From NCBI GenBank assembly GCA_030613055.1, contig JAUWMR010000033.1, forward strand, positions 1 through 41,755: a stretch of 41,755 nucleotides of DNA, read 5' to 3'. The notes beneath the pieces are model-generated. The model saw only the letters and a program-made list of their open reading frames with translations, searched no databases and was not told the origin of the DNA. Numbering within the stretch: position 1 is the stretch's first letter; each line of letters begins with the position of its first letter. A program made the position numbers and the translations under genes. Positions 2,835 through 38,751 of the stretch are shown here, piece by piece. The DNA comes from Desulfobacteraceae bacterium. GTDB lineage: Bacteria; Desulfobacterota; DSM-4660; Desulfatiglandales; Desulfatiglandaceae.

Positions 2835-2983
2835 TTTCTAAGGATACGGGTTTGACCGATTTTTTGCAATACAATACCAGAGAGATCCTCCCAATTTTAG
2901 TTGCCGATTCCATCTTGAGGTGATAAATATACGTCTCGTAAATTCTAAAAACTATTAAAAGTAAAGACCGAGGAGTGCTAAGG

Positions 2984-4456
2984 ATGTGGAATCGAATAAG
3001 CCTGCGCGCCAGGATTTATTCAATTTTGGCTTCATTAGTGTTGATCACCTTATCAGCCGGTATTATTATGGTGTGGTATACCTATCGCATGGAAGGGCTT
3101 TTTAATTATGTGATTGAGAAACACGTTGCAGCCTTTCAGGTAGCGGAAGCCCTGGAAAACGCCCTTGTAAATCAGAAAGGATTCGTTTCTTATTATTTTT
3201 TAGACGGTAATCCGGAGTGGTTGAGACAATTGGGAGAGTACCGCCAGGTCTTTAAAGGACGGCTTAATGAGGCGTGTTCCCTTATTAACACCGAACAACA
3301 AAAGGAAGTAATTAATCGTATTGAAAGCGAATATTCCCGGTATTCAGCTTCAAGAGACCGGGTGATCGCATACTACAAATCAGGAGAGAGGGAGGCTGGT
3401 GCAAAGCTCCATCAGGAAGTGCGTGATCGTTTTTTTAAAACACTTGAACTTTGTGACGATTACAAAAAAATCTACACTGAACGCATCATGCTGGCCAGGG
3501 AAAGAAGCCATTTCAGGGCCAGAAATCTAAGGATAATAGCGGTTACGGCTATAATAGGTGTTTTTTTCCTGGCCTCTCTTTTGACGCTTATCTTGATAAC
3601 GTATATTTTGACTCCCATCCGGAAGCTGGCCCTGGAGACGGATCCGAAAGGTGGAGTTCGCAAATCCCCAAACGAAGTCAAAGCGCTCAGCAAGAGTGTT
3701 CGCGGCCTGATTGAAGATGTTGATCAGACCTATTTTGAACTTGAAAAAAGCCGCGAAACACTTTTACAGGCGGAAAAAATGGCATTGGTGGGAAAATTAG
3801 CCGCAGGTATGGCCCACAGTATTCGTAATCCTCTTACCTCTGTAAAAATGCGTCTTTTTTCATTAGGAAGGACCCTTGATCTGTCTGATTACCAGAAAGA
3901 CGACTTTGAAGTGATCTCCGATGAGATTCGTCACGTGGATAAAATTGTTGAAAATTTCCTTGAGTTTTCGCGACCCCCTAAGCTCAAGATGCAGAGAATG
4001 AGTTCCTCAGATGTAGTGGATCTGGTTATTCAATTGTTACAGCACCGCCTTAAATATTATGATGTGGACGTGAAAGTTCATCGCGGACACACACTTCCGG
4101 AGATTCAGGGCGATCCCGAGCAGTTAAAGGAGGTGCTGGTTAATCTTATAATGAATGCGTGTGAGGCCATGGAGGGTGGTGGCGCAATAGACATTTATGA
4201 GGAACAAAGTCTTGTGGAGCCTTTGGGCCAGGCAATAGTAATTCGTGTGGCCGATGATGGGCCGGGGATCAGGAAATCTATCCAGGCCAAAATCTTTCAG
4301 CCCTTTTTTACTACCAAGGAAGAGGGTACGGGTCTGGGTCTGAGTATCGCCGCCCGTATAGTGGACAATCACGGGGGGCGGCTGGATCTCACATCCAAAG
4401 AGGGAGAGGGAAGCACGTTCATCATAGCCCTCCCTGTTAAGGGGATAGAGCCTTGA
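2984..4456 (+). CDS. membrane sensor histidine kinase (partner of the sigma54 activator)
   Basis: This is a 490-residue kinase. A transmembrane helix at about 9-30 is followed by a helical periplasmic sensor of about 150 residues resembling a four-helix-bundle (4HB/MCP) module, a second helix at about 183-209, a coiled linker, HisKA and HATPase_c. The phosphoacceptor His278 lies in MAHSIRNPLTS. The N box (NLIMNACEAM), G1 (DDGPGI) and G2 (TGLGLS) are intact. The usual acidic residue after the histidine is Ser here. The ATG at 2984 was chosen because GGAG lies 8 bases before it; a GTG at 2975 overlaps that site. Its stop overlaps the start of the activator gene by 4 bp, so the two are almost certainly co-translated and form a pair. 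Confidence 0.9.
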   Translation: MWNRISLRARIYSILASLVLITLSAGIIMVWYTYRMEGLFNYVIEKHVAAFQVAEALENALVNQKGFVSYYFLDGNPEWLRQLGEYRQVFKGRLNEACSLINTEQQKEVINRIESEYSRYSASRDRVIAYYKSGEREAGAKLHQEVRDRFFKTLELCDDYKKIYTERIMLARERSHFRARNLRIIAVTAIIGVFFLASLLTLILITYILTPIRKLALETDPKGGVRKSPNEVKALSKSVRGLIEDVDQTYFELEKSRETLLQAEKMALVGKLAAGMAHSIRNPLTSVKMRLFSLGRTLDLSDYQKDDFEVISDEIRHVDKIVENFLEFSRPPKLKMQRMSSSDVVDLVIQLLQHRLKYYDVDVKVHRGHTLPEIQGDPEQLKEVLVNLIMNACEAMEGGGAIDIYEEQSLVEPLGQAIVIRVADDGPGIRKSIQAKIFQPFFTTKEEGTGLGLSIAARIVDNHGGRLDLTSKEGEGSTFIIALPVKGIEP

Positions 4457-5883
4457 GTACTATCTTGATCATTGATGACGACGACCAGTTGAGGAAAAGC
4501 TTTGATAAGCTACTGATCGAGGAAGGCTATATTGTCGAAAGCGCACCTTCCGGTGAAGTGGGACTCAATATTGTCCGGGATAAAGTGCCTGATGTGGTTA
4601 TCCTTGATATGCGTTTGCCAGGAATGAACGGGTTTGAGGCGTTTCAGGCCATGCATAAAATCGAGCCAAAGCTTCCTGTAATTATAATGACCGCTTACGG
4701 TACCACGGAAACGGCAATAGAGGCCACCAAAATGGGTGCCTTTGATTATGTTCTCAAGCCCTTTGAAATCCCTGACATGTTAGGTGTGATTGGGCAAGCG
4801 TTAGAGGCGGGCCGCTTTATGAGATCGCCCGTGGCCATGAATGCCATTCCTGATGAAACCTCCAGCGAGGCAATCATTGGCCGGAGCAAAGCCATGCAGG
4901 ATGTTTACAAGGAGATCGGTCGGGTGTCGCCTACCGATGCCACGGCCCTTATCCGGGGCGAGACAGGGACCGGCAAGGAACTTGTTGCCCGTGCCATATA
5001 TCAACACAGCCTCAGGGCAGATAAGCCGTTTCTTGTCATTAATTGCGTGGCAATTCCGGAGAATTTACTTGAAAGCGAGTTGTTTGGATACGAAAAAGGG
5101 GCCTTTACCGGGGCGTCTCATCGCCGTGTGGGGAAGATTGAACAGGCCAGCGGGGGGACTGTTTTTTTAGATGAGATCGGTGATATGCCCTCCAGTATCC
5201 AGGCAAAGATTTTGAGGTTGCTCCAGGAAAAGAGCATTGAGCGTTTAGGGGGCAGAGAAACCATCCCCGTAGACGTGCGAATTATTGCCGCCACTAACCG
5301 TAACCTGGAGGAGGCCCTCGCCAGAGGCCGATTCCGTGAAGACCTGTATTATCGTCTTAAGGTTGTTACAATCCGGCTTCCTCCGCTTTGCAACAGGACA
5401 GATGATATTCCTCTCCTTACGGTATATTTTCTTGGCAGGTATGCGGCAGAAATGGGCGTGGATAATCCAGGGGTTTCAGAGGAGGCAATGGGAATACTGA
5501 AGGATTATTCATGGCCGGGTAATGTCCGCGAGCTTGCTAATACCATACAGAAGATATTGATTTTCAACCGTGGCGCGCCTATACGCCCTGAGAACATTTT
5601 CCAGGCCATTAGTGGTAAAGGCATTAGCAAACTGGAGGGGGCCGAAGGCGGTGAGGAGATGATCCTCAAATGGATGCGAAAGACTTTAGCCTCTGAGACG
5701 AAGGAAAACATGTTCGATTTCTGCATGGACAGATTCGCAGGCATGATTGTCAGCGAAGCTTTGAAACTTACTGGTGGAAACCGGTCCCAGGCAGCCAAAC
5801 TCCTTGGCCTGTCAAGGCCCACGCTTCATTCCAAGATTGAGAAATATAATCTAAAGATAGAGACATCCGTTAAAAGAGATTGA
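4453..5883 (+). CDS. sigma54-dependent response regulator (NtrC family)
   Basis: This is a complete 476-residue enhancer-binding protein. The receiver spans about 1-118 (Asp8-Asp11 cluster, phosphoacceptor Asp52, Thr80, Lys102). The AAA+ domain spans about 138-370, with Walker A GETGTGKE at 169-176, the sigma54-contact loop GAFTGA at 216-221 and Walker B VFLDEIGD near 237-244. A Fis-type helix-turn-helix lies at the C terminus (GGNRSQAAKLLGLSRPTLHS). It starts with TTG overlapping the kinase stop; AAGGGGAT gives a Shine-Dalgarno. It is the only DNA-binding output regulator in the window. A perfect palindrome starts one base after its stop codon and is a candidate binding site for it. Confidence 0.95.
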   Translation: MSTILIIDDDDQLRKSFDKLLIEEGYIVESAPSGEVGLNIVRDKVPDVVILDMRLPGMNGFEAFQAMHKIEPKLPVIIMTAYGTTETAIEATKMGAFDYVLKPFEIPDMLGVIGQALEAGRFMRSPVAMNAIPDETSSEAIIGRSKAMQDVYKEIGRVSPTDATALIRGETGTGKELVARAIYQHSLRADKPFLVINCVAIPENLLESELFGYEKGAFTGASHRRVGKIEQASGGTVFLDEIGDMPSSIQAKILRLLQEKSIERLGGRETIPVDVRIIAATNRNLEEALARGRFREDLYYRLKVVTIRLPPLCNRTDDIPLLTVYFLGRYAAEMGVDNPGVSEEAMGILKDYSWPGNVRELANTIQKILIFNRGAPIRPENIFQAISGKGISKLEGAEGGEEMILKWMRKTLASETKENMFDFCMDRFAGMIVSEALKLTGGNRSQAAKLLGLSRPTLHSKIEKYNLKIETSVKRD

Positions 5884-5900
5884 TTTTACAAATTGTAAAA
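5884..5900. promoter_or_regulatory. candidate activator-binding palindrome (UAS 1)
   Basis: The sequence is TTTTACA-AAT-TGTAAAA, a perfect 7-3-7 inverted repeat. Its centre (5892) lies 119 bp before the GG of the -24/-12 promoter at 6010-6025. The same 7-3-7 repeat occurs at 24608-24624, 116 bp before the other -24/-12 promoter. That position suits an enhancer-binding protein, and the adjacent NtrC-family gene is the obvious candidate. The site is read directly from sequence; binding is inferred. Confidence 0.65.
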
Positions 5901-6009
5901 AAATCCGACATCAAAACGGTTCAAATATGCTGGCCCCTAACCTTGCCTTTTTAAAATAATATCTGTTGTATCAAACACTTCCGCTACATTTCCCGTTTAT
6001 CTCCCATCT

Positions 6010-6025
6010 TGGCACACGGGTTGCT
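6010..6025 (+). promoter_or_regulatory. sigma54 (-24/-12) promoter
   Basis: TGGCACACGGGTTGCT matches the RpoN consensus TGGCAC-N5-TTGCW exactly, with 10 bases between the GG and GC dinucleotides. Transcription would start near 6036 and read into the 6205-7667 operon, leaving a leader of about 170 nt that contains a copy of the repeated intergenic unit. It lies just downstream of a sigma54-activator gene and its candidate enhancer site. Confidence 0.8.
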
Positions 6026-7253: not shown

Positions 7254-7667
7254 GTGGTAAAAAAATTTACAATCCTGATAGCGGACCGCAATCGCCACGT
7301 TAGAGAGTTTTTAAAGCGAGAGATGATAGCAGAGGGCTACCAGGTCAGGTTAGGGAGTAGTAGTCAGGAGGTATTGAAATGGGCATTCCATCATGAGCCT
7401 CTTGATCTTTTGATTCTGGACCCGGACTTGCTTGACGCGGAAGATGCAGCCCTCTTTGAGAAGCTCAATGATCGAATTCCCACTCTGCCGGTGGTTGTGC
7501 ATTCATTTGGCTCAGATTACTCCAGTCATCCGGGTTTGGCAGATGCTGCCGCCTTTGTCGAGAAAACGGGTAATAGCGTGGAACGTCTCAAGCAGGTAGT
7601 ATCTGAGGTGTTGCGGCAGTCCACTTTTAACAGCGCCGGTGCACCGGATGAGAAAAAAAGTCATTAA
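7254..7667 (+). CDS. degenerate receiver-domain protein
   Basis: The 137-residue protein is one receiver-like domain with no output. The Asp pair near the N terminus is reduced to one acid (IADRNRH, Asp11). A possible phosphoacceptor Asp56 lies in LLILDPDLLD, Ser84 replaces the usual Thr, and Lys104 is present. The missing second acid should weaken magnesium binding, so it may be a pseudo-receiver rather than a phosphorylated regulator. The GTG start follows GAGGA by 6 bases, 13 bp after the CBS-ACT gene, so the two are an operon. Confidence 0.75.
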   Translation: MVKKFTILIADRNRHVREFLKREMIAEGYQVRLGSSSQEVLKWAFHHEPLDLLILDPDLLDAEDAALFEKLNDRIPTLPVVVHSFGSDYSSHPGLADAAAFVEKTGNSVERLKQVVSEVLRQSTFNSAGAPDEKKSH

Positions 7668-15529: not shown

Positions 15530-15582
15530 GATACAGTCCGTTTTTCTACTAATCCGTGAAGATCTTTTTATTTAGTGATGTT

Positions 15583-18189
15583 ATGGGCCTGATTTCAAAT
15601 ATCATAAAAAATCTTTTACAGAAGCGGGAAGTTAGGAAACCGTTGAACGTAGAAGAACTCCGCACTGATTTCAGAGCGCGTTACCACCAGTTCAAGCTGC
15701 TTTTGAATGCCAATAACAAGGCATTAGAGATCATGGCAGAGATGGAGGATGCTCTTAGGGGGACATGGCCTTTTGGTATGTCTTTTGTACGGTCCAGGAG
15801 CACAAGTGTTTCAACAAATGTCTTCCAGATCGTCAAACATTTAAACGAACTGAGCCCCGGAAAGTATAAAGCGCTTTATGAGCGATTTAGAGAAATCCAA
15901 AAGGAAATAAACCCATTCGTTTATCCCAGGACCGCGAAAAAAGAAGGCCCGTTAGTCCTTTCACTCAAGGATGTGGACAGGGATCTGGCGGATCAGGTGG
16001 GCAGCAAGATCGCAAATATCGGGGAGATTAGAAACCGAATTCATCTTAAAGTTCCTGACGGGTTTGTTATCACATCACAGGCATACCAGCAGTTTATGGA
16101 ACTGAACGACCTCCAGGCGGAAATAGACCAGCGTATTCAGGCGACTGACGTGGATAGGGTGGATAAGCTTTACCAGCTCAGCGTCGATATTCAGCAATTG
16201 ATCATCCGGTCGCCGGTTCCAGAAGATCTTAAAGCCGATATTCTGGAAAACTACAGGCTCCTGGAATCTGTAAATGGCAAAGGACCCACTCTTGCCATGC
16301 GCAGCAGCGCATTAGGCGAGGATACGGCAGGAACGTCTTTTGCAGGTCAGTATCGGTCAGAACTCAATGTGAGCGAAGAAAATATATTTGATTCTTACAA
16401 AGAGATCCTGGCCAGCAAATACGGCCTGCCAGCAATGACATACCGCCTGAACAGGGGTATTCGAGATGAAGACGTTGCTATGTGTGTCGGGTGTCTGTGC
16501 ATGGTTGATGCGATTTCGGGCGGCGTGCTTTATTCAAGAAATCCCATGAGAATCAGGGATGAAACAATCGTTATCAATTCAGTGTGGGGCCTCCCTAAAT
16601 CTGTTGTTGACGGCAGTACGACCCCGGATCTCTTTGTCATCTCAAGGGATGATCCCATGATGATTCTCCGAAAGGAGGTGCCTGTCAAAGAGCAAAAATT
16701 TGTGTGCTATCCCGATGAAGGTGTTTGTCGTGTGGATATGGCCGGGGAGGAAAGCAGTAAGGCCTCTTTGACCGATGAACAGGCCTTAGAACTTGCACAA
16801 TTAGCGGTGCAGGTGGAAGAGCACTACGGCGTGCAGCAGGATATCGAGTGGGCCTTAGATCCGGATAACAACATTGTTTTTCTTCAATGTCGACCCCTTA
16901 GGCAGACGGATATACAAGGGTTCCAGGATACTGAATCCGTTCGGCCTGAGGAAGCGGATTCCGTCATTCTCAGGGGAGGGGTAACGGCCAGTCCGGGTGT
17001 GGCCGCCGGTCCCGTCTTCATTGTCAAAAAAGACATGGATATCCTTCAATTTCCCGAAGGAGGCGTTCTGGTTACTGCCCAATCCCTGCCCCGCTGGGCC
17101 ACGCTCCTGAATCGAGCGGCCGCAGTGGTTACGGAACAGGGAAGTATTGCGGGACATCTTGGTAATGTGGCGAGAGAGTTCGGGGTGCCTGCACTTTTTG
17201 GCCTGAAAGAGGCCATAGATCAATTAGAGAACGGGCAAGTGGTCACTGTTGACGCTGACGGCCTCAGTATCTATGAGGGTCGTATCGATGATCTTTTAAA
17301 AAGGGAGGAGAAACCTAAGAATCTCATGGAAGGGAGTCCTGTTTTTGAGGCATTGCATGGGGCTTCCCGGCTTATCATCCCTTTGAATCTTTTAGATCCC
17401 AATGCACCCGAATTCAGACCTGATAATTGCAAAACATTCCATGACATTACTCGTTTTTGTCACGAAAAATCCGTTCATGAGATGTTTAGCTTTGGGAAAG
17501 AGCATCGTTTCCCTGAGCGTTCCAGCAAGCAATTGCTATGTAAAGTGCCAATGCAGTGGTGGGTCCTGAATTTAGATGATGGGTTTTATGAGGAGGTAGA
17601 GAGTAAATATGTAAACCTGGAAAATATCGCCTCTATTCCCATGTTAGCCCTTTGGGAGGGGATTACTGCCGTCCCCTGGGAAGGCCCGCCGCCGGTAGAC
17701 GGAAAGGGATTCATGTCGGTCATGTTCCAGGCAACCGCAAATACGGCATTAGTCCCAGGCGTGCGTTCACAATATGCCGATCGAAATTATTTTATGATTT
17801 CCAAAAATTATTGCAGCCTGAGTTCCAGGCTTGGGTTTCACTTTTCCACCGTAGAGACCCTGGTGAGTGATAGATCGAGTGAAAATTATATAAGTTTCCA
17901 GTTCAAGGGCGGGGCAGCAGATTATCAAAGGAAGAGAAAAAGGATCGTTTTTGTAATGGAATTATTAGAGGATTATGATTTCAGGGTAGACGTGAAGGAA
18001 GACAGCCTGATCGCACGGTTAGAGGATCGGGAAGAGGGGTTCATGAAAGAACGTCTGAAAATCTTAGGTTACCTGACCATGCATACAAGGCAGCTTGACA
18101 TGATTATGGCTAACAATTCCAAAGTGCGTTACTACCGGTCAAAAATTAAAAAAGATATTCAAAACATGATTGATTCCCAGCAGGGTTAA
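15583..18189 (+). CDS. PEP-synthase-like protein (ATP-binding and phosphohistidine domains, novel C-terminal region)
   Basis: The 868-residue protein has a helical N-terminal region of about 130 residues and a PPDK/PEP-synthase ATP-binding domain (about 130-440; AMRSSALGEDTAGTSFAGQY and QDIEWALDPDNNIVFLQCRP). A swivelling phosphohistidine domain (about 480-580) follows, with candidate catalytic His525 in GSIAGHLGNVAREFGVPALF. The PEP/pyruvate barrel of true PEP synthases is absent; about 280 residues of unrecognised sequence follow instead. It probably moves phosphate from ATP via the histidine to an unknown acceptor. The ATG at 15583 is preferred over a GTG at 15556; neither has a good Shine-Dalgarno. 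It stands alone after the terminator. Confidence 0.8.
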   Translation: MGLISNIIKNLLQKREVRKPLNVEELRTDFRARYHQFKLLLNANNKALEIMAEMEDALRGTWPFGMSFVRSRSTSVSTNVFQIVKHLNELSPGKYKALYERFREIQKEINPFVYPRTAKKEGPLVLSLKDVDRDLADQVGSKIANIGEIRNRIHLKVPDGFVITSQAYQQFMELNDLQAEIDQRIQATDVDRVDKLYQLSVDIQQLIIRSPVPEDLKADILENYRLLESVNGKGPTLAMRSSALGEDTAGTSFAGQYRSELNVSEENIFDSYKEILASKYGLPAMTYRLNRGIRDEDVAMCVGCLCMVDAISGGVLYSRNPMRIRDETIVINSVWGLPKSVVDGSTTPDLFVISRDDPMMILRKEVPVKEQKFVCYPDEGVCRVDMAGEESSKASLTDEQALELAQLAVQVEEHYGVQQDIEWALDPDNNIVFLQCRPLRQTDIQGFQDTESVRPEEADSVILRGGVTASPGVAAGPVFIVKKDMDILQFPEGGVLVTAQSLPRWATLLNRAAAVVTEQGSIAGHLGNVAREFGVPALFGLKEAIDQLENGQVVTVDADGLSIYEGRIDDLLKREEKPKNLMEGSPVFEALHGASRLIIPLNLLDPNAPEFRPDNCKTFHDITRFCHEKSVHEMFSFGKEHRFPERSSKQLLCKVPMQWWVLNLDDGFYEEVESKYVNLENIASIPMLALWEGITAVPWEGPPPVDGKGFMSVMFQATANTALVPGVRSQYADRNYFMISKNYCSLSSRLGFHFSTVETLVSDRSSENYISFQFKGGAADYQRKRKRIVFVMELLEDYDFRVDVKEDSLIARLEDREEGFMKERLKILGYLTMHTRQLDMIMANNSKVRYYRSKIKKDIQNMIDSQQG

Positions 18190-24159: not shown

Positions 24160-24560
24160 CTCCAAGGCCGTCACTCCCGCCCCGCCTGTCGGAGTGAGGC
24201 GTAGATCCCGCTATCGGGGCCGCCCGGCGGGCAGGTCCGGAGGGCAGGTTTCGCCTGCCTGTGCAGGGATGGCAGACAGGCGGGTATGACAGCTCTCATA
24301 TCTGCTTGATATTAAATGCTTTAGTGTCATTCCGGCCCTGCATCAATTTGATAATTATTACATAAGCATGAACTCTGCGTAGCGCAGGGCTTTAGCCCTG
24401 CTTAGTCCATGGCATGGCTGAAGCCATGCGCTACATCTGTCAGGCATGGCTGAAGCCGTGCGCTACATCTGTCAGGCAGGGCTGAAGCCGTGGGCTACTT
24501 TATTGTCATTCCCGCCCTGCCTGCCGTATTGCGGGCAGGTTCGGCAGGCGGGCCTTATAA
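24160..24560. repeat. cluster of REP-type hairpins
   Basis: Several palindromic words follow one another: GTCACTCCCGCC and CTATCGGGG near 24170-24220, GCGCAGGGCTTTAGCCCTGC at about 24380-24400, and three tandem variants of CATGGCTGAAGCCATGCGCTAC with ATCTGTCAGGC spacers up to about 24500, then GTCATTCCCGCCCTGCC. They match the hairpins in the MITE-like elements. The transposase type that spreads REPs (RAYT) is encoded at the window end. No gene is seen. Confidence 0.7.
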
Positions 24561-24607: not shown

Positions 24608-24624
24608 TTTTACAATCTGTAAAA
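24608..24624. promoter_or_regulatory. candidate activator-binding palindrome (UAS 2)
   Basis: TTTTACA-ATC-TGTAAAA is the same perfect 7-3-7 inverted repeat as at 5884-5900, differing only in the spacer. Its centre (24616) lies 116 bp before the GG of the -24/-12 promoter at 24731. The shared sequence and distance suggest that one sigma54 activator controls both promoters. Confidence 0.65.
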
Positions 24625-24730
24625 AATATTGACATATTGTTACCGCCGACAGGCGATACCGCAACGCTTGTCTTTTGGAAATCAGCTTTATTTTTGAATA
24701 GTTAGCTAAGGCTTCCGCCATCCTCATTTT

Positions 24731-24746
24731 TGGCATACCTATTGCC
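24731..24746 (+). promoter_or_regulatory. sigma54 (-24/-12) promoter
   Basis: TGGCATACCTATTGCC fits TGGCA-N6-TTGC with 10 bases between GG and GC. The predicted start near 24757 gives a leader of about 90 nt before the SLC13 gene at 24847. It is preceded by the enhancer-like palindrome. Confidence 0.75.
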
Positions 24747-24846
24747 TGTATTATTCTTCATTCATCCATACATAAAGCAACTACTCAGGTTATTTAGGGC
24801 GAAGCTTGACTATGTGAGTAGTCACATGAAATCTAAGGAGGAAAAT

Positions 24847-26502
24847 ATGGTCCATCACGCAACAGTTGATGCACAGCATAAGTTGAGTTTCTGGGCAAAT
24901 AAACCTGGTTACAAGCCTGTTTTATTATTAATGGCGGCGATTGTCTTTACCGGGCTGGTTGTTATTCCACCTCCACAGAGCATGATTGATCTGGCGGGAA
25001 AGATCAGTCCTGCCGGGTACAAACTGCCAACCGGGTGCAAGACTATTACCGACAGTATCAATAATAAGCACCACCCTGCCGCCTTTGAGGCGGCGAAAAA
25101 GGCCGATAAAAAGGCCCTCGCAAAGGCTAAACCTCTATTTACGGACAGAGACGCGGCCCAGTTGGCTAAGATTATGCTTGGCATATTCTTTTTAGTTGTT
25201 TTTTTATGGGCAACCGAGGCCCTGCCCCTTGGAGCAACCGATATCCTGGCGGGAGTGATGTTGTACCTTTTCTGCATCCTTCCTGTGAATGAGATCTCCC
25301 AGGCATATATGAAGGATGCCGTATTTTTTATCTTCGGCATTTTAGCGGTGGCAGTGGGCGTTGCCAAGACTGGACTCGATAAGCGGATTGGACTGATACT
25401 GCTAAGCCGTATAAAAAATGCAAAGGCATTTGCATTTATCTTTATTCCGGTATTGGGAATGTCGGCAAGTTTTCTGTCTGAACATGCCCTTGTGGCGCTC
25501 CTGATTCCGGTTCTTATGGGTATATACAAGGTTACATGCAGGATGCACGGGGTTGAAAAGGACAGGGCCTTAGCCGTCTTTCTCCTGTTAGGAGTATGTT
25601 TTGCCGCAAATCACGGCGGCCCGGGCTCTCCTGCGGCCGGTGGACGAAACGCCATCATGGTGGGATATCTTATGGAATATGGTATGCCCATCTCCTTTTT
25701 AGACTGGATGAAATACGGCATGCCGTTTGTCCCCTTAATGGGCGTGGTCATAGGCGCTTATATGTATATTCGCCTGAAGCCCAAGTTTAAGGTCCAGGAT
25801 GTCAACCCGAGTGAAGTTGTCAAGGCAGAAGTCGCCAGGATGCCCAAGTTTGGAGGAAAAGAGGCCATGATGGCAGTTATCCTGGTCGTACTGGTCGCTG
25901 CATGGATTATTCTGAGCGAACATTACGGATTGGGAGGACCCACGCTTTACGCGGTTATGGCCATGTTTCTCTGCCGTATTATCACATGGGATGATATCCA
26001 GGAGGGTGTGGCATTGGATGTGGTGGGATTATACGCTGCCGCCTGCGCCATGGGCCTTGGCCTGAAATTCACAGGCGGAGCGCTCTGGTTAGCCAATACC
26101 TTTGTGGCGATGCTTCCCGATTTTATTGCCCACGGAGATAGCCTGGCCATAGGGATCAGCGTGCTTACCGGGACCATGACCAATTTTATGAGTGACGGGG
26201 CGACAGTTGCGGCCCTTGGGCCTATTGTCCTGCCCATGGCCGAGCTTGCCAATGTCCATGTGTGGAAACTGGGCCTGGCCTGTGCCTTTTCCTCTTCTTT
26301 TGCAAACTTTTTGGTTGTTGGGACCCCGAACAATGCTATTGCCTTTGGCATGGGCAAGGATCCCGAGACAGGGGAAAGGCTGTTGAGCGTCTTTGATTTT
26401 GTGAAGTATGGATTACCTGTAACCATCCTTGCATGGCTTGTACTGTGGTTCTGGGCAATATTAGGGTACTGGCGATTCCTTGACTGGCCAGCGCTGGGGT
26501 GA
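24847..26502 (+). CDS. SLC13/DASS family sodium:anion symporter (copy 3)
   Basis: The 551-residue transporter has a first helix at about 22-40, a hydrophilic Lys/Ala-rich loop (about 45-105), then the main membrane domain. Substrate-site regions are GGPGSPAAGGRN (about 257-268), TNFMSDGATVAALGP (from about 445) and GTPNNAIAFG, closest to copy 1. The start is fixed by TAAGGAGG before ATG 24847; earlier in-frame codons lie inside the -24/-12 promoter or its early leader. It is the first gene of a likely sigma54-controlled operon with the kinase at 26510, the receiver at 28223 and the kinase at 28723. Sulfate or another small anion is the likely substrate by family and context. Confidence 0.92.
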   Translation: MVHHATVDAQHKLSFWANKPGYKPVLLLMAAIVFTGLVVIPPPQSMIDLAGKISPAGYKLPTGCKTITDSINNKHHPAAFEAAKKADKKALAKAKPLFTDRDAAQLAKIMLGIFFLVVFLWATEALPLGATDILAGVMLYLFCILPVNEISQAYMKDAVFFIFGILAVAVGVAKTGLDKRIGLILLSRIKNAKAFAFIFIPVLGMSASFLSEHALVALLIPVLMGIYKVTCRMHGVEKDRALAVFLLLGVCFAANHGGPGSPAAGGRNAIMVGYLMEYGMPISFLDWMKYGMPFVPLMGVVIGAYMYIRLKPKFKVQDVNPSEVVKAEVARMPKFGGKEAMMAVILVVLVAAWIILSEHYGLGGPTLYAVMAMFLCRIITWDDIQEGVALDVVGLYAAACAMGLGLKFTGGALWLANTFVAMLPDFIAHGDSLAIGISVLTGTMTNFMSDGATVAALGPIVLPMAELANVHVWKLGLACAFSSSFANFLVVGTPNNAIAFGMGKDPETGERLLSVFDFVKYGLPVTILAWLVLWFWAILGYWRFLDWPALG

Positions 26503-26509
26503 TTTTATT

Positions 26510-28171
26510 ATGAAAACATCACTTTATTCAAATCTCCAGAGAAATATTATTGCCGTCACCCTGCTGGTGTCCCTTGCCCCGCTTATTCTTCTTGGCGTAA
26601 CCATGTATTATCAGTTTTCCAGGACCTGCAGGGATAAGATCGAAGAGCAGATAAGATATAGAGCCGGGGCGCAGGCAGAGGCCGTGGACCTGTTTTTAAA
26701 GGAACGCACGGCCATTCTTGGGGCAATGGCTGCCAGTCACAGCCTTAGTGAAATGATCCTGGGAAAGAATCTTTCCAGGGTATTTGAGGTCATGAATCAA
26801 TGGGCAGGGGCATTTGTGGATTTGGGAGTCATAGATAATGCCGGTCAACATCTGGCCTACGTGGGGCCTTATGATTTAAAGGGGCTTAATTACTATCAGC
26901 AGCCCTGGTTTGCCGAGGTTATGAGCAAGGGCATATACATCAGTGATGTATATACGGGCTTTCGGCAGTTGCCCCATTTCATTATTGCCGTTCGACGCCA
27001 GGAAGGCCAGAACAGCTGGATCCTGAGGGCAACCATTGACCCGGACATCTTCGGGGGAATAGTGCGATCCGCCCAGATTGGAAAGACAGGAGATGCCTAC
27101 CTCATCAACAGGGACGGTTTTTTTCAAACCAATCCACGGTTCGACGGACGTATATTAGCCGAATCAAAGCTTAATACGAGGCTGTTTGGTGGCAGGACAA
27201 CGGTTATTGAGCAGGAAAATAGACACGGCAGGAAACTCCTTTATGCCGGAAGCTGGCTCAAAAATGACAAATGGCTGCTTGTTATCAGCCAGGATCCGCA
27301 TGAGCAAATGAGCGGTCTATTTATGGCCCGGAACGTGGAAATCGTGATCATTATTTCCGGGATCCTCGCAATCATCCTGGCAACCATATTTACAACCCGT
27401 CTGACAGTCAGCCGGTTAAGACAGTCAGACTCGAGGATGAATGAACTCAACGCGGAACTGATCCAGTCGGACAAATTGGCTGCCATAGGCAAAATGGCGG
27501 CAGGTGTGGCCCATGAAATCAACAACCCATTAGCTGTCATTCTACAGAAAACCGGATGGATGGAAGATCTCCTGTATGATGAGAATTTTCAAAACGCCAA
27601 AAGCCTTGAAGAATATAAGGAGTCCATTAAAATCATAGAGGAATATGTAGAGCGCGCGCGAAAGGTCGTGCATAATATGCTTGGCTATGCGCGCAAGATG
27701 GAGCCTCATTTAGAGGATGTGGATGTGAATGGAACTATCAATCAGACCATCGACATGTTAGAGAATTACGCAAGAACCAATAGTATTGATATTCAAACAG
27801 AACTGGATCCGGATCTCCCGATTATTGCCGGAAACGAGGCCCAGCTCCAGCAGGTTTTTATGAACCTGATATCAAATGCTATTGACGCAATCGGCAAAAA
27901 CGGCCTGATTAAGGTGAAAAGCGGCCGTACGGGCTCAGACATAGCAGTCAGCATAATAGACGATGGCCCTGGCATACCCCGGGATCAGCAGAAAAAGGTC
28001 TTTGACCCGTTTTTTACGACAAAGGAGGCAGGCAAGGGCACGGGCCTCGGGTTGTGGGTCATTTATGAAATAATAAAAAGCATGGGGGGCTCTATTACCA
28101 TAAAAAGCGAGGTGGAAAAAGGCACTACTTTTGTGGTAAACATTCCCATAGTAGTTCCGGAGAAAAAATGA
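26510..28171 (+). CDS. Cache-domain membrane sensor histidine kinase (duplicate B)
   Basis: The 553-residue kinase is the close duplicate of the one at 21976, with the same layout: helices at about 13-35 and 278-298, double-Cache-like sensor with [18 protein letters not shown], His335 in [12 protein letters not shown], and complete N, G1 and G2 boxes. ATG 26510 is chosen because its start (MKTSLYSNLQ) aligns with [10 protein letters not shown] of the duplicate. It begins 7 bp after the SLC13 gene, so transporter and sensor are made together and may interact or respond to the same anion. Confidence 0.92.
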   Translation: MKTSLYSNLQRNIIAVTLLVSLAPLILLGVTMYYQFSRTCRDKIEEQIRYRAGAQAEAVDLFLKERTAILGAMAASHSLSEMILGKNLSRVFEVMNQWAGAFVDLGVIDNAGQHLAYVGPYDLKGLNYYQQPWFAEVMSKGIYISDVYTGFRQLPHFIIAVRRQEGQNSWILRATIDPDIFGGIVRSAQIGKTGDAYLINRDGFFQTNPRFDGRILAESKLNTRLFGGRTTVIEQENRHGRKLLYAGSWLKNDKWLLVISQDPHEQMSGLFMARNVEIVIIISGILAIILATIFTTRLTVSRLRQSDSRMNELNAELIQSDKLAAIGKMAAGVAHEINNPLAVILQKTGWMEDLLYDENFQNAKSLEEYKESIKIIEEYVERARKVVHNMLGYARKMEPHLEDVDVNGTINQTIDMLENYARTNSIDIQTELDPDLPIIAGNEAQLQQVFMNLISNAIDAIGKNGLIKVKSGRTGSDIAVSIIDDGPGIPRDQQKKVFDPFFTTKEAGKGTGLGLWVIYEIIKSMGGSITIKSEVEKGTTFVVNIPIVVPEKK

Positions 28172-28222
28172 ACTTTGAACCGATCTCTTAAGATTTAAAA
28201 ATTTAAAATAATGGAGGTTTTT

Positions 28223-28684
28223 ATGGATTATTTTAGAGTTCTAATTGTGGATGACGAGAAACCCTTTGTAGATACTTTGGTTAATCGATTCAACAAGAGA
28301 AATATAGATACGACAGGGGTCCTCAGTGGTGAGGAGGCATTGGAATTGATGAAGGAAAAACTCTTTGACGTGGTTATCCTTGACATAAAAATGCCCGGGG
28401 GAATGGATGGGATCGAGACTCTGAGAGAGATCAAGAAGGTTCAACCCCTTTCCGAGATTATACTCCTTACAGGACACGGGTCGGTTGAGACAAGTATTGA
28501 AGGGATGAAATTGGGCGCCTTTGATTACGTTTTAAAACCTGTGAAATTAGAAGATCTTCTCGTAAAGATGGCTGAAGCCTTTGAAAAAAAGGACGCCCAT
28601 GACCAGAAGATCCGGAGCGCTAAGATAAGGGAATTGATCCGCTTTCCGGGACGGGTGCTTGAGCAGGAAAAAGAGGAAAAATAG
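28223..28684 (+). CDS. response regulator, receiver only with helical tail (duplicate B)
   Basis: The 153-residue receiver is a duplicate of the one at 23689: Asp54 phosphoacceptor, the MPGGMDG loop with the extra glycine, and tail KKDAHDQKIRSAKIRELI followed by a longer charged end (LEQEKEEK). GGAGG lies 5 bases before ATG 28223. It is preceded by the same short intergenic sequence as its duplicate, so kinase, spacer and receiver were copied as one block. Confidence 0.9.
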   Translation: MDYFRVLIVDDEKPFVDTLVNRFNKRNIDTTGVLSGEEALELMKEKLFDVVILDIKMPGGMDGIETLREIKKVQPLSEIILLTGHGSVETSIEGMKLGAFDYVLKPVKLEDLLVKMAEAFEKKDAHDQKIRSAKIRELIRFPGRVLEQEKEEK

Positions 28685-28722
28685 GATTTTATAATTTGTT
28701 TTTGTTTTTGGGTGTCAGAGCC

Positions 28723-30408
28723 ATGAAAGAACATCGCTATGCGGGTTTGAGAAGAAGTATCCTGGGCAGTATGATCCTGGTGCCGCTCGTTCCCTTTATT
28801 CTTATTCTGGGTATCGGTTATTATTATTTTACAACGTCCATACAGACCAGCACCATCGCGAGCATGAAACGAATCGTTGGCGATCATCGCCAGATGATCG
28901 AATCGTTTTTAACGGAACGCAAGGCAAATCTTGAGTATATTCTCTATTCCTACAGTTTTGATGAATTAGCTGAACCCCAGAAGCTCTATGATATATTCTG
29001 CCAGTTACAAAAAGAATCTAATGCATTTTTGGATCTTGGCCTGTTTAATGAAGAAGGCATCCATGTGAATTACCAGGGACCCTACAAATTGGCTGGCAGG
29101 GATTATGGGAAAGAAGACTGGTTTAAGGAAGTCATGAAGGAGGGTCATTATATCAGCGATATTTTCTTAGGCTACCGGCGCATACCTCATTTTGTTATTG
29201 CCACTAAAAGAGAAGAGGCAGGGAGAAAATGGATAATCAGGGCCACAATCGATACATACATGTTCAATGATCTGGTCAAAAAGGTCCGAATCGGCAGAAC
29301 CGGCGAGGCATATATCCTCAATAAGGATGGCGTATTCCAGACAGAGAGGCGATCTGGCGGAAATCTAATGGAAATAGATCCTGAAAAAGTCAGATACCCA
29401 TCATCTCAGAGCGGAATTATAAACTTCATTCATAAAGATGAAAGGGGTGAGACGTATTGCTATACTACGACCTGGCTTAAGGATAAGGACTGGCTCCTTG
29501 TTGTCAGGCAAGAAAAGGCGGATGCATTCAAGGCATTCCGATCTGCCGCCTACCTGATTATCCTTATCAGTTTAATCGGTGGCGGAGTTATTATCGGCCT
29601 CGCGTTTTATATGACGGATCGAATTATCAGGCGGATGAAAAGAATAGACATTGAAAAAGAGCAATTGGGCGATCAGCTCATCAGGGCGAGCAGGTTAGCG
29701 GAGATTGGGGAAATGGCAACAGGTATTGCCCATGAAATCAACAATCCCCTCCAGATCATGAATAGCGAACATGGGCTTATAGAGGTTCTCCTTTCTGATC
29801 TGAAGGAGCATGGAGATCTAAAGGAATCGGAAGATTTGAAAGAACTCGAGGATTCCATTGACCAAATAAAGATTCAAATTGGCCGTTGTTCAAAAATTAC
29901 GCACGCTGTTCTTAAGTTCGGCAGGCAAAGCGATGTCGTTTCTACGGATATCGACCTTGGTGGTTTTATCCCCGAGGTTATCGGTCTGGTTGAAAATAAG
30001 GCAAGCGTCGAAGGGATCACCGTAAAACAGGATATATCGGAAGACACGCCCTTGATCCAGGGTGATCCGGGACAACTGCAGCAGGTATTGATTAATCTTT
30101 TTAATAATGCAATTGATGCGATTGTTGAAAGGCACGGTTCTGAGGGGGGCGAACTGGTTATTGCAAGTCATATTGGGGAAGATGGGAAGGTTGAAATCTC
30201 TGTAAAAGATAATGGGGGCGGTATCAGTCCTGATAATTTGAAAAAAGTTTTTCAACCTTTTTTTACAACAAAACCGGTGGGGAAGGGAACGGGATTGGGG
30301 CTTTCCGTCTGTTACGGCATTATAGACCACATGGGCGGTATCATGGAGGTCAGCAGTCAAAAAGGCGTTGGAACTACCTTTTTTATACGTCTCCCGGTTG
30401 CGACTTAG
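28723..30408 (+). CDS. Cache-domain membrane sensor histidine kinase
   Basis: The 561-residue kinase has helices at about 15-37 and 276-298 and a double-Cache-like sensor between them (YISDIFLGYRRIPHFVIA at 143-160), then HisKA with His337 in [12 protein letters not shown], an acidic insertion between the HisKA helices (repeats of LKE.EDLKE), and an intact HATPase_c. It is more distant from the two duplicates than they are from each other. ATG 28723 is preferred; an upstream TTG (28696) has no Shine-Dalgarno. It is followed at 60 bp by the receiver at 30469, its likely partner. Confidence 0.9.
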   Translation: MKEHRYAGLRRSILGSMILVPLVPFILILGIGYYYFTTSIQTSTIASMKRIVGDHRQMIESFLTERKANLEYILYSYSFDELAEPQKLYDIFCQLQKESNAFLDLGLFNEEGIHVNYQGPYKLAGRDYGKEDWFKEVMKEGHYISDIFLGYRRIPHFVIATKREEAGRKWIIRATIDTYMFNDLVKKVRIGRTGEAYILNKDGVFQTERRSGGNLMEIDPEKVRYPSSQSGIINFIHKDERGETYCYTTTWLKDKDWLLVVRQEKADAFKAFRSAAYLIILISLIGGGVIIGLAFYMTDRIIRRMKRIDIEKEQLGDQLIRASRLAEIGEMATGIAHEINNPLQIMNSEHGLIEVLLSDLKEHGDLKESEDLKELEDSIDQIKIQIGRCSKITHAVLKFGRQSDVVSTDIDLGGFIPEVIGLVENKASVEGITVKQDISEDTPLIQGDPGQLQQVLINLFNNAIDAIVERHGSEGGELVIASHIGEDGKVEISVKDNGGGISPDNLKKVFQPFFTTKPVGKGTGLGLSVCYGIIDHMGGIMEVSSQKGVGTTFFIRLPVAT

Positions 30409-30468: not shown

Positions 30469-30918
30469 ATGGAAAAAATGAAGATGATGCTTGTAGATGA
30501 TGAAGAAAGATTTCTTTCTACTACCAAAAAGTTGCTTTTGAAAAAGGGATACGATGTCCTCACGGCTGTGAGTGGGTCAGAGGCATTGGAAAAATTGAGA
30601 ACCCATAATATCCACGTTGTGATATTAGACGTTAAAATGCCCGGAATGGATGGCATTGAAACACTAAAAGCAATTAAAAAGCTTTTTCCTATGGTCGAGG
30701 TCATAATGCTGACCGGGCACGCCACGGCAGAGTCTGCCGTTCAGGGTTTAAAGTCAGGGGCCACGGATTATCTTATGAAACCCACGGATGTAAACGACCT
30801 TATTGAAAAGGCAGAAGAGGCGTTCGATAAAAGGCAGAGGCTGGAAGAAAAGATCCGCGTGGCCCAGACCCGGAGCTTTATGAAGTCCCCGAGACAAATC
30901 ATCAGAGACACTGAGTAA
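30469..30918 (+). CDS. response regulator, receiver only with helical tail
   Basis: The 149-residue receiver has Asp9-Asp11, Asp54 in VVILDVKMPGMDG, and Thr and Lys in MLTGHA and LMKPTD, then a tail (DKRQRLEEKIRVAQTRSFM) like that of its relatives. TAGGGGG precedes the ATG. The 60 bp before it contain CTTAACTACTCAACTACTC simple repeats related to those at 7714-7857. It probably pairs with the kinase just upstream. There is no output domain. Confidence 0.9.
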   Translation: MEKMKMMLVDDEERFLSTTKKLLLKKGYDVLTAVSGSEALEKLRTHNIHVVILDVKMPGMDGIETLKAIKKLFPMVEVIMLTGHATAESAVQGLKSGATDYLMKPTDVNDLIEKAEEAFDKRQRLEEKIRVAQTRSFMKSPRQIIRDTE

Positions 30919-31227: not shown

Positions 31228-33078
31228 ATGGCTAAACCTGAAAAAAAGGCCACTGGATATGACAAATATGTGGACTGGAAGCTCTTTGTTATACCTGTCG
31301 TTTTATTCTTTGCTGTCCTGATCCTTCCTACGCCTTACGGTATGAAGGACGTGGGTACCGAAGTCAGGGTAGGTCCAAAGGCCGTTGTAAATCTTATAAC
31401 AAAGGAGCTGTTTAATATAAAGAGCTCAGATGTGGGTCAATGGGAGCTTCTAACCGCCCAGATGATGGAAAGAAACATGAGGATGGGGGCGCTTTCCAAA
31501 GACCGGTTTCTTAAAAGAGAACTAAAATGGTGCAAAAAATACAAAATCCAGGCAGATGACGAAAATCTGAAGAGGGCCCGCAAATACGTCGAGGAAAATA
31601 TCAGCGATAAGGCATTCCTTGAAATCATGGAAAAATCCATGAAACTCAGAAAGGACGGGCTTAAGTACGAGGATCTTTCTCCCAGGGACAAAAAAGCCGC
31701 CGATAAAGGTGCCTGGCATATCAAGGTTGCGATAGCAATGATGGTCTTTGTCGTTTTCTGCTTTATGACGGAATGTATTCCGCTTCCGGGTGTCGCCTTT
31801 TGTATCGGTCTCATTCTTGTGTTCACCGGCGTTGTTACAAGGAAACAGGTGGCCATGCTCTACTGGAGCGACGCGTGCTGGTTTATTATGGGAAGTCTAA
31901 TGTTTGCGGCCGCCTTTGTGAAAACCGGAGTTGATAAGAGGATGTGCCTTGCAATGTTTAAAAAATTGGCCGTGCCCAATATTAAATGGGTAACTCTTGT
32001 CTTTTTTATCATTATTGCTCCTCTCGCGGCCTTTATCTCCGACCATGCATTGGCTGCCATGTTCCTTCCCATAGGGATGCTTCTCTATCAAAACAGCCTG
32101 ACGGATGAGGTTCCCGAGGACAAAGAATTAGCCAAGATGCTCATGATAGCGATTGCCATGGCCTGTAACATAGGAGGCCCCGGGGCACCCTCTGGTGGGG
32201 CGAGAAACGTGATAATGATGACCTACTTAAATGACATGTTCGGTTTTGATATCGGCTATTTTCAATGGGTCACCTATTGTTTCCCGTTTATCATTTTCAT
32301 GATTCCTGCGACGTGGTTTGTGGTAAACTGGCGCTTTAAGCCCAAAATTACTTCCCTTGCCCCTGCCATGAATCATCTTCAAAGAGAGATAGGGAAGATG
32401 GGGGGCTGGAACAGACAGCAGATATCGGCGCTTATTATTTTCTTTGTCATGGTGTTTGGCTGGTTCACGGAAAAGGTCTTCTATAATATGGGTATTTATC
32501 CCGTTCGTCTCGGGATTGGCGTAATAGCAGTTGGAGGCGCAATGGCCTATCTCCTGGCCGGCGTTGTCAACTGGAGAGACTACCAGGAAAAGGTGGACTG
32601 GGGTGTGGTCTGGCTATATGCCGGCGCCATAATATTTGGCCGCACCCTGGACAGCACCGGGGCTGCCTACTGGCTGGCAAGATCGGTCATTGATGTTCTC
32701 GGGCCCCTTGGAATGGATTCAGGGCTCCCTCTTTTGGCGACTTCAAACGGTCTTACTGCCGTGTTGACCAATCTTATGGCCGATGGCCCCGCGGCAGCGG
32801 CCGTGGGCCCCATCGCCCTGAACATGGCAGGCCTTGTTCATCCTGGCACCACTTATCTGCCCTTTATGGCCATGGCCACAGCAATATCATCTTCCTTTGC
32901 ATATTGTTTGATTATAGGAACACCTCCGAACGCCATTGTTTATGCAAGCGGCTACCTTGAGCCAAAGGATTATCTCAGGGTTGGGATACCCATGTGGTTT
33001 ATCGCGAACGTACTTATTGTTTTGCTTACGGCGGTCTACTGGAGTTTCAGGGGGTTTGGCGGGTTGCCCGGATTTTAG
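31228..33078 (+). CDS. SLC13/DASS family sodium:anion symporter (copy 4, with large insert)
   Basis: The 616-residue transporter has a first helix at about 15-33, then a charged, mostly helical insert of about 125 residues (about 35-160), longer than in the other copies, before the main membrane domain. Substrate-site regions are GGPGAPSGGARN, TNLMADGPAAAAVGP and GTPPNAIVYA, different again from the other copies. GAGG precedes the ATG. The next genes (52-residue membrane protein, YIP1-family protein, REC-CBS regulator, PAS kinase) follow on the same strand and may form one unit with it. Confidence 0.9.
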   Translation: MAKPEKKATGYDKYVDWKLFVIPVVLFFAVLILPTPYGMKDVGTEVRVGPKAVVNLITKELFNIKSSDVGQWELLTAQMMERNMRMGALSKDRFLKRELKWCKKYKIQADDENLKRARKYVEENISDKAFLEIMEKSMKLRKDGLKYEDLSPRDKKAADKGAWHIKVAIAMMVFVVFCFMTECIPLPGVAFCIGLILVFTGVVTRKQVAMLYWSDACWFIMGSLMFAAAFVKTGVDKRMCLAMFKKLAVPNIKWVTLVFFIIIAPLAAFISDHALAAMFLPIGMLLYQNSLTDEVPEDKELAKMLMIAIAMACNIGGPGAPSGGARNVIMMTYLNDMFGFDIGYFQWVTYCFPFIIFMIPATWFVVNWRFKPKITSLAPAMNHLQREIGKMGGWNRQQISALIIFFVMVFGWFTEKVFYNMGIYPVRLGIGVIAVGGAMAYLLAGVVNWRDYQEKVDWGVVWLYAGAIIFGRTLDSTGAAYWLARSVIDVLGPLGMDSGLPLLATSNGLTAVLTNLMADGPAAAAVGPIALNMAGLVHPGTTYLPFMAMATAISSSFAYCLIIGTPPNAIVYASGYLEPKDYLRVGIPMWFIANVLIVLLTAVYWSFRGFGGLPGF

Positions 33079-37689: not shown

Positions 37690-38751
37690 ATGCAATTTAT
37701 TAAGGAGTTATACAGAAAACTATATACTAACTGGTTATGGCCTCAAAATATGAATAATAGATTCGTCTATAATTATCCAATTGATCAATGCGATATCCTC
37801 GATAAAGGTAAAGGGGAAGCATTTCGAAAAATGCGAATGAAATGGATCGAGTGGCTGCATGGTGAAGATCCTCACTCGATATCCCGGCAGATATCCTCAA
37901 TTCTTTGGGATTATGCACTATTTTTAACTGTCAATGAGTTAAGAAGGATTGCAGATACAGAGCCTGAAAAAGAAGTGGGTTTCAACGAGCCGGTTATTCG
38001 CCTATTTAATGCTGGTTTCGCCACAACCCAAGCAGTAGCGATAAGACGGCTCATTGAAAAACCAAAAAGAGATCCAAAATGGGCTGTTATTTCGCTAAGG
38101 CGAGTTCTAAATGAAATTGAACAAAATTTGGATCTGATGACTCGCGAGAACCATGTTTGCTATGATGGCCTACCTTATGATTACGATTTAGTGTACCAGA
38201 AGTGGCAAACTTCCCGACCTGTAGGAGAGCATTCGGGCACTTATCCGATTTATGGGCCTTATGGTTTCTCAATGTCTGAAAGTGTTCATAAAAATTTCGA
38301 TATGTTGGCGCAAATACATCCGAAAAAGCGATCAAGAAAAGATCGGATAAAAATTGAAGTTCTGGAGCATTTAGAATCTGAAATTAAAAAATGCGAAAAT
38401 ATTAAGAAGTATGTTGACAAATTCATCGCCCATGCTGCCGCTCCCGAAACAAGAACATCCTTTTCGGAGGAAGAGAAAGGCATAACTTTAGAACGTTTGG
38501 AAACATGTCATAAGACTATCTATCAAGTTGCTTCTTTTATCTCTGGACGACTCCTTTGGGAATCCAATCTTGGAGGATTACCTGTTCCCCAATACGAACA
38601 TCTCAAAAACCTTGATAAGAGATGGACAACTCCAAAAAATATGAAGAAGGCCCATAAAAAATGGAATGAATATGAAAAGGTAGTCTTAAAGTGGGATTCA
38701 ACTTCACTTTGGCCTCCTGGTTTTAGGATGGATTGGGAAAATGCGCCATAA
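37690..38751 (+). CDS. cassette gene, unknown function, C-terminal HEPN/AbiU2-like stretch
   Basis: The 353-residue soluble protein is rich in charged and aromatic residues. I recognise no firm family. The segment KKYVDKFIAHAAAPE and the following helices resemble the (R/K)xK.IAHA region of AbiU2-type HEPN proteins, which occur in phage-defence and toxin systems; this is a weak resemblance and the usual Arg is missing. Base composition is more AT-rich than the genes to the left. Its TAA stop lies inside the left arm of the attC-like site at 38747, as is common for integron cassette genes. The ATG has no clear Shine-Dalgarno. Confidence 0.65.
   Translation: MQFIKELYRKLYTNWLWPQNMNNRFVYNYPIDQCDILDKGKGEAFRKMRMKWIEWLHGEDPHSISRQISSILWDYALFLTVNELRRIADTEPEKEVGFNEPVIRLFNAGFATTQAVAIRRLIEKPKRDPKWAVISLRRVLNEIEQNLDLMTRENHVCYDGLPYDYDLVYQKWQTSRPVGEHSGTYPIYGPYGFSMSESVHKNFDMLAQIHPKKRSRKDRIKIEVLEHLESEIKKCENIKKYVDKFIAHAAAPETRTSFSEEEKGITLERLETCHKTIYQVASFISGRLLWESNLGGLPVPQYEHLKNLDKRWTTPKNMKKAHKKWNEYEKVVLKWDSTSLWPPGFRMDWENAP

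Follow-up and report, generated by a model that had tools for sequence, protein, structure and literature searches.

We report that positions 24608–24746 of the window, the whole 41,755-nt stretch of DNA analysed here, hold an operator-promoter module that, judged from its sequence and conservation, is very probably one of two copies in the window regulating a two-component sigma54 regulon of a DASS transporter cluster. In the full mechanism that we propose, a histidine kinase (2975–4456) would phosphorylate an NtrC-type activator (4453–5883), and the activator would bind a three-half-site operator, TTTACA-N3-TGTAAA-N7-GACA, ~120 nt upstream of a −24/−12 promoter. The DNA between operator and promoter would be bent, probably by IHF, and the looped activator would contact and open the sigma54 polymerase. 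Copy 2 of the module would activate the genes for a DASS anion symporter, two Cache kinases and two receivers. A second enhancer and sigma54 promoter ahead of an SLC13 (DASS) operon had been proposed in the initial annotation, and the sequence supports this proposal.

Both elements are present where they had been placed. The palindrome at 24608–24624, TTTTACAATCTGTAAAA, is a perfect 7-3-7 inverted repeat, and the predicted sigma54 promoter at 24731–24746, TGGCATACCTATTGCC, contains GG-N10-GC, has one mismatch to TGGCAYRN4TTGCW and has its predicted start near 24757, on the forward strand. The copy near 6 kb comprises the palindrome TTTTACAAATTGTAAAA at 5884–5900, starting directly after the stop codon of the activator gene, and the predicted promoter of operon 1, TGGCACACGGGTTGCT, at 6010–6025 on the same strand, with no mismatches to TGGCAYRN4TTGCW. 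Start-to-start spacing between palindrome and promoter is 123 nt in copy 2 and 126 nt in copy 1, bearing out the earlier claim that the arrangement is repeated with almost equal spacing; both palindromes lie ~107–110 nt 5′ of a −24/−12 box. The sequence TTTTACA-N3-TGTAAAA occurs at exactly two sites in the whole genome (4,260,235 bases), both inside the window, compared with a chance expectation for the perfect palindrome of ~0.04 per genome (from base composition, 45% GC) and no match to the reversed control pattern across the whole 4.26 Mb. The −24/−12 pattern alone, allowing up to two mismatches, was found 24 times against 21 expected, which is not significant; significance rests on the fixed combination of palindrome and promoter, not on the −24/−12 box singly. 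A phage search with the 6-kb copy of the module returned no match. A third palindrome-like site at 28530–28546 was dropped, as it lies inside a receiver coding sequence and has neither GACA nor a promoter. The gap before the module holds, at 24411–24506, three tandem 32-nt units (GGCATGGCTGAAGCC...) that are internally symmetric.

We searched related genomes with a combined pattern consisting of the palindrome core, the gap and GGC-N8-TGC. This pattern was found in 29 of the 46 genomes of the family, where the reversed control gave no matches, and in 38 of the 85 genomes of the order, with ~90 matches against none for the control. Alignment of 75 sites revealed GACA seven bases past the palindrome core, its letters kept in 68 (G), 74 (A), 73 (C) and 71 (A) of them; GACA was outside the search pattern. 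We therefore take the candidate operator to include this third half-site, at 24609–24634 in copy 2 (TTTACA 24609–24614, TGTAAA 24618–24623, GACA 24631–24634) and at 5885–5910 in copy 1 (TTTACA, TGTAAA, GACA 5907–5910), both on the forward strand. The palindrome described in the initial annotation is exact, but the candidate operator is larger. The distance to the −24 box was 118–126 nt in 69 of the 75 sites and 111–114 nt in the other 6, about one helical turn shorter, as would be expected if a fixed face of the helix is kept. The predicted sigma54 promoters have the candidate activator site within roughly 80–150 nt upstream, and this is kept in relatives.

The activator gene (4453–5883, forward strand) encodes a receiver, a sigma54-activating AAA+ domain with GAFTGA and a Fis-type helix-turn-helix, and is the only response regulator of the cluster in the window with a recognised DNA-binding domain. 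Conservation across 26 orthologs covers GAFTGA, Asp52 of the receiver and the helix-turn-helix. Its NCBIfam ntrC score of 483.5 falls below the cut-off of 558.6, and no equivalog among the matches listed reaches its cut-off; the protein is therefore of NtrC type but not NtrC itself. The adjacent histidine kinase gene (2975–4456, forward strand; 4HB_MCP sensor, HisKA, HATPase) overlaps the activator gene by 4 nt, which makes the two a likely pair and the kinase the presumed cognate one. Recognition of copy 2 by a DNA-binding regulator encoded 20 kb away had been suggested; the activator near 5 kb is the most likely recogniser, although the distance between its gene and copy 2 is 18.7 kb. Activator orthologs share 69–80% identity, with the next paralogs at 48% or less, and more distant orthologs are found in Desulfobacter vibrioformis (63%) and a Desulfobacterium MAG (64%). 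The MAG carries the module with one mismatch and D. vibrioformis has no module under a relaxed pattern; the operator has therefore drifted or is absent in these genomes.

The genes behind copy 2 lie on the forward strand. The first, preceded by aaggaggaaaat, encodes SLC13/DASS symporter copy 3 (24847–26502, 551 aa), and it is followed by a dCache histidine kinase identified by Pfam domain search (26480–28171), a receiver-only response regulator (28211–28684), a second dCache histidine kinase (28696–30408), orthologs of which in other genomes often have a module copy to themselves, and a second receiver-only response regulator (30469–30918). The operon had been described as this symporter, two Cache kinases and a receiver; symporter and kinases stand, but there are two receivers rather than one. 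SLC13/DASS symporter copy 4 (31228–33078, forward strand), which follows a 309-nt gap and for which the window holds no separate module, is possibly the distal end of this operon. The genes behind copy 1 include those for a CBS protein, a receiver and SLC13 copy 1. Symporter copy 3 has Na_sulph_symp/CitMHS domains (Pfam, 135 bits against a cut-off of 27) and scores 192.3 bits against NCBIfam dass, just under the cut-off of 198.6; its best solved relatives include dicarboxylate, citrate and sulfate carriers, and VcINDY is among them.

Comparison of the gap in relatives had been put forward as a check, with loss of the palindrome in close relatives despite a retained operon counting against the module; the outcome does not refute it. 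Amongst 19 orthologs of SLC13 copy 3 with 72% or more identity and readable upstream DNA, 16 have the module upstream, 14 of them in full and two (G014 and G032) as a perfect operator with a box at 122 nt whose −12 element reads TTGA. The three without it are from G024 and G082, both of which also lack the activator, and from G078, which has it. Other recurrent first genes after the module encode the second Cache kinase of the copy 2 operon, CBS proteins and universal stress proteins.

The signalling genes of the copy 2 operon look like outputs of the activator rather than inputs, with feedback conceivable. An unlikely but not negligible alternative is that the Cache kinases converge on the activator, directly or, as the initial annotation had it, via receiver-only relays. 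The signalling genes do stand under the activator's predicted promoters, and identity to the activator's receiver is roughly one third to two fifths for most receivers in the cluster, so that some kinases could phosphorylate the activator directly, which we consider possible. However, the activator has its own adjacent, overlapping kinase gene, and Pfam searches found no output domain in the receiver-only proteins of the cluster and no HPt domain in the scanned window proteins. A receiver-to-receiver relay to the activator is therefore unsupported, and relay without HPt is unlikely in itself. A degenerate receiver at 7254–7667, in which ADRN replaces the usual acidic pair and whose Pfam score is just over the cut-off, turns up in many relatives close to CBS proteins or the activator and is perhaps a phosphorylation-independent partner.

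The assignment of the operator to the NtrC-type activator draws on their joint distribution. Of the 85 genomes, 30 carried activator and motif together, 5 had just the activator, 8 had just the motif and 42 lacked both (Fisher P = 9 × 10−11), and within the family the corresponding numbers were 23, 4, 6 and 13 (P = 4 × 10−4), P values that overstate independence because the genomes share ancestry. Module and activator gene are no more than 1.5 kb apart in many genera. It is improbable, more so than convergence of the kinases, that the palindrome instead serves as operator for some other regulator, such as one of CRP/FNR or TetR type, and happens to lie near a sigma54 promoter used by another activator. 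The symmetric TTTACA-N3-TGTAAA would suit a generic dimeric repressor or activator, and in the eight motif-only genomes no activator ortholog was detected. Five of these are less than 90% complete, while G004, G057 and G080 are not; in G004, the homologue of the G036 site is degraded in its third half-site, from GACA to TACG. Among the five genomes with the activator but no strict motif, the transporter of G078 retains the sigma54 box while the operator is gone. Against a different regulator stand the two fixed spacing classes and their helical phase, the adjacency to the activator gene and the co-occurrence with it, all of which are predicted for an enhancer of this activator, as well as the TGT-N11-ACA half-sites, which match a motif group of Fis-type activators in Desulfovibrio vulgaris (PMC4641369).

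Both the cluster and the promoter type are known; in the papers searched, we found neither a connection of the two nor this operator or regulon. DctB/DctD pairs a dCache kinase with an NtrC-type regulator at the sigma54 promoter of a dicarboxylate carrier; there too, a secondary anion transporter is controlled by a two-component system and sigma54. In the window, by contrast, the kinase neighbouring the activator has a 4HB_MCP sensor, the Cache kinases with receiver-only partners are targets, and the transporter is a DASS protein rather than DctA. In D. vulgaris, Fis-type activators are encoded beside their target promoters and recognise TGT/ACA half-sites 9, 11 or 12 bp apart, and a three-half-site operator has been described for DVU2956 (PMC4641369). 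The present system resembles these two-component sigma54 regulons in activator adjacency, half-sites and three-half-site operator, and TGT-N11-ACA within the operator has the spacing of one activator motif group; none of the regulons listed there is described as a sulfate-transporter regulon, however, and the main text does not mention DASS or SLC13 (PMC4641369).

A close match in gene content is a cluster of ~30 kb in Desulfosarcina variabilis and relatives, 26 sulfate-reducing species in all, which holds DASS symporters, Cache histidine kinases, response regulators and CBS proteins (PMC11887813). Its DASS sulfate transporters are formed constitutively. The authors consider that sulfate may be sensed by the Cache kinases, and they propose WalR-type regulators with a CBS level of control; unlike in the window, no NtrC-type activator, enhancer or sigma54 promoter is named for the cluster in that text (PMC11887813). 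The model for Desulfosarcina, from the proteogenomics of six Desulfobacteraceae, has WalR-type response regulators of the cluster binding to the DASS promoters (PMC11887813). For the window this seems very unlikely, since its receivers (131–157 aa) have no DNA-binding domain. Finally, an origin by chance of two palindromes and two weak promoter matches in one window, for which one could cite a −24/−12 pattern as frequent as in shuffled sequence, is already refuted by the genome-wide rarity of the palindrome, the order-wide search and the third half-site conserved outside the search pattern, and we give it virtually no weight. For sigma54 control of a DASS sulfate-transporter cluster, we found no report in the open-licence literature, and a report elsewhere may have been missed.

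We next consider the DNA between operator and promoter. An IHF-like site at 5969–5981 (forward strand), TATCAAACACTTC, lies between operator 1 and its promoter and matches WATCAANNNNTTR strongly, at 8 of 9 positions, whereas copy 2 has a weak match (6 of 9). Over the 75 sites, the match to the IHF-like consensus is enriched at one constant position, averaging 5.05 of 9 at offset −39 compared with about 3 elsewhere, and scores of 8 or 9 occur in 26 of the 75 operator-promoter regions compared with 9.6 in mononucleotide shuffles. Sigma54 promoters of the D. vulgaris orp operons are reported to need IHF (PMC3897727), which would be a likeness in another sulfate reducer; at the present module, by comparison, the enriched consensus match is what suggests a role for IHF.

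Sulfate uptake is the most likely function of the DASS symporter operon, since the similar Desulfosarcina cluster carries DASS sulfate transporters and aprA is present in the lineage of the window. The signal may be sulfate or energy status, which we judge about evenly poised. DASS transporters of Desulfobacterium autotrophicum respond in opposite ways to sulfate level (PMC5840216), and the direction of a sulfate response is therefore not predictable. For the control of sulfate uptake in sulfate reducers, a 2025 proteogenomic study could only propose a model (PMC11887813). A module recurring across an order of sulfate reducers offers a concrete, testable answer as to how this control may work: it comes with a named activator, an operator defined letter by letter, a promoter geometry and an order-wide list of targets, so that each step can be tested in a cultured relative.

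The candidate targets extend beyond transport in some genomes. In four of them, the module precedes sat or aprBA by ~410–640 nt, and in a fifth, G004, which has no activator, a decayed copy is found (loci L070, L083, L094, L104 and L108); this suggests control of sulfate activation in some species. The sat-aprBA-qmo operon was dropped as a general target: 30 further aprA upstream regions, some shortened by contig ends, had no module except for one poor match (G027), and sat/aprBA control is therefore a side branch. Upstream of the divergent aprA in the window's own genome there is no module, and the sat-aprBA-qmo upstream region of G035 has a conserved TTGACA/TATAAT-like stretch closer to the gene. 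Other genes preceded by the module are a CBS gene with a NiFe hydrogenase after it and genes for ADP-forming acyl-CoA ligases. As a tentative idea, which we think rather doubtful, the activator could be the order's master regulator of sulfate respiration, covering DASS importers, Cache kinases, CBS and universal stress proteins, sat/aprBA, hydrogenase and ligases; if true, sulfate uptake would be induced jointly with the first reduction steps.

Further copies and neighbours were noted along the way. A third strong module copy in the window's genome (L063:2744; G000 contig C6:65743) lies 631 nt ahead of the TRAP-transporter genes DctQ and DctM, with no ORF of 70 aa or more between them, and a weaker fourth (L064:2309; G000 contig C77:92808), with GACA shifted by two bases, lies ahead of Cache kinase and receiver genes. 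Near the window end, a HEPN/AbiU2-like gene (37690–38751) is possibly defence-related. An 877-aa protein (15556–18189) with PEP-synthase ATP-binding and mobile domains, below NCBIfam cut-offs, is encoded next to TauE and is conserved in the cluster in other genera.
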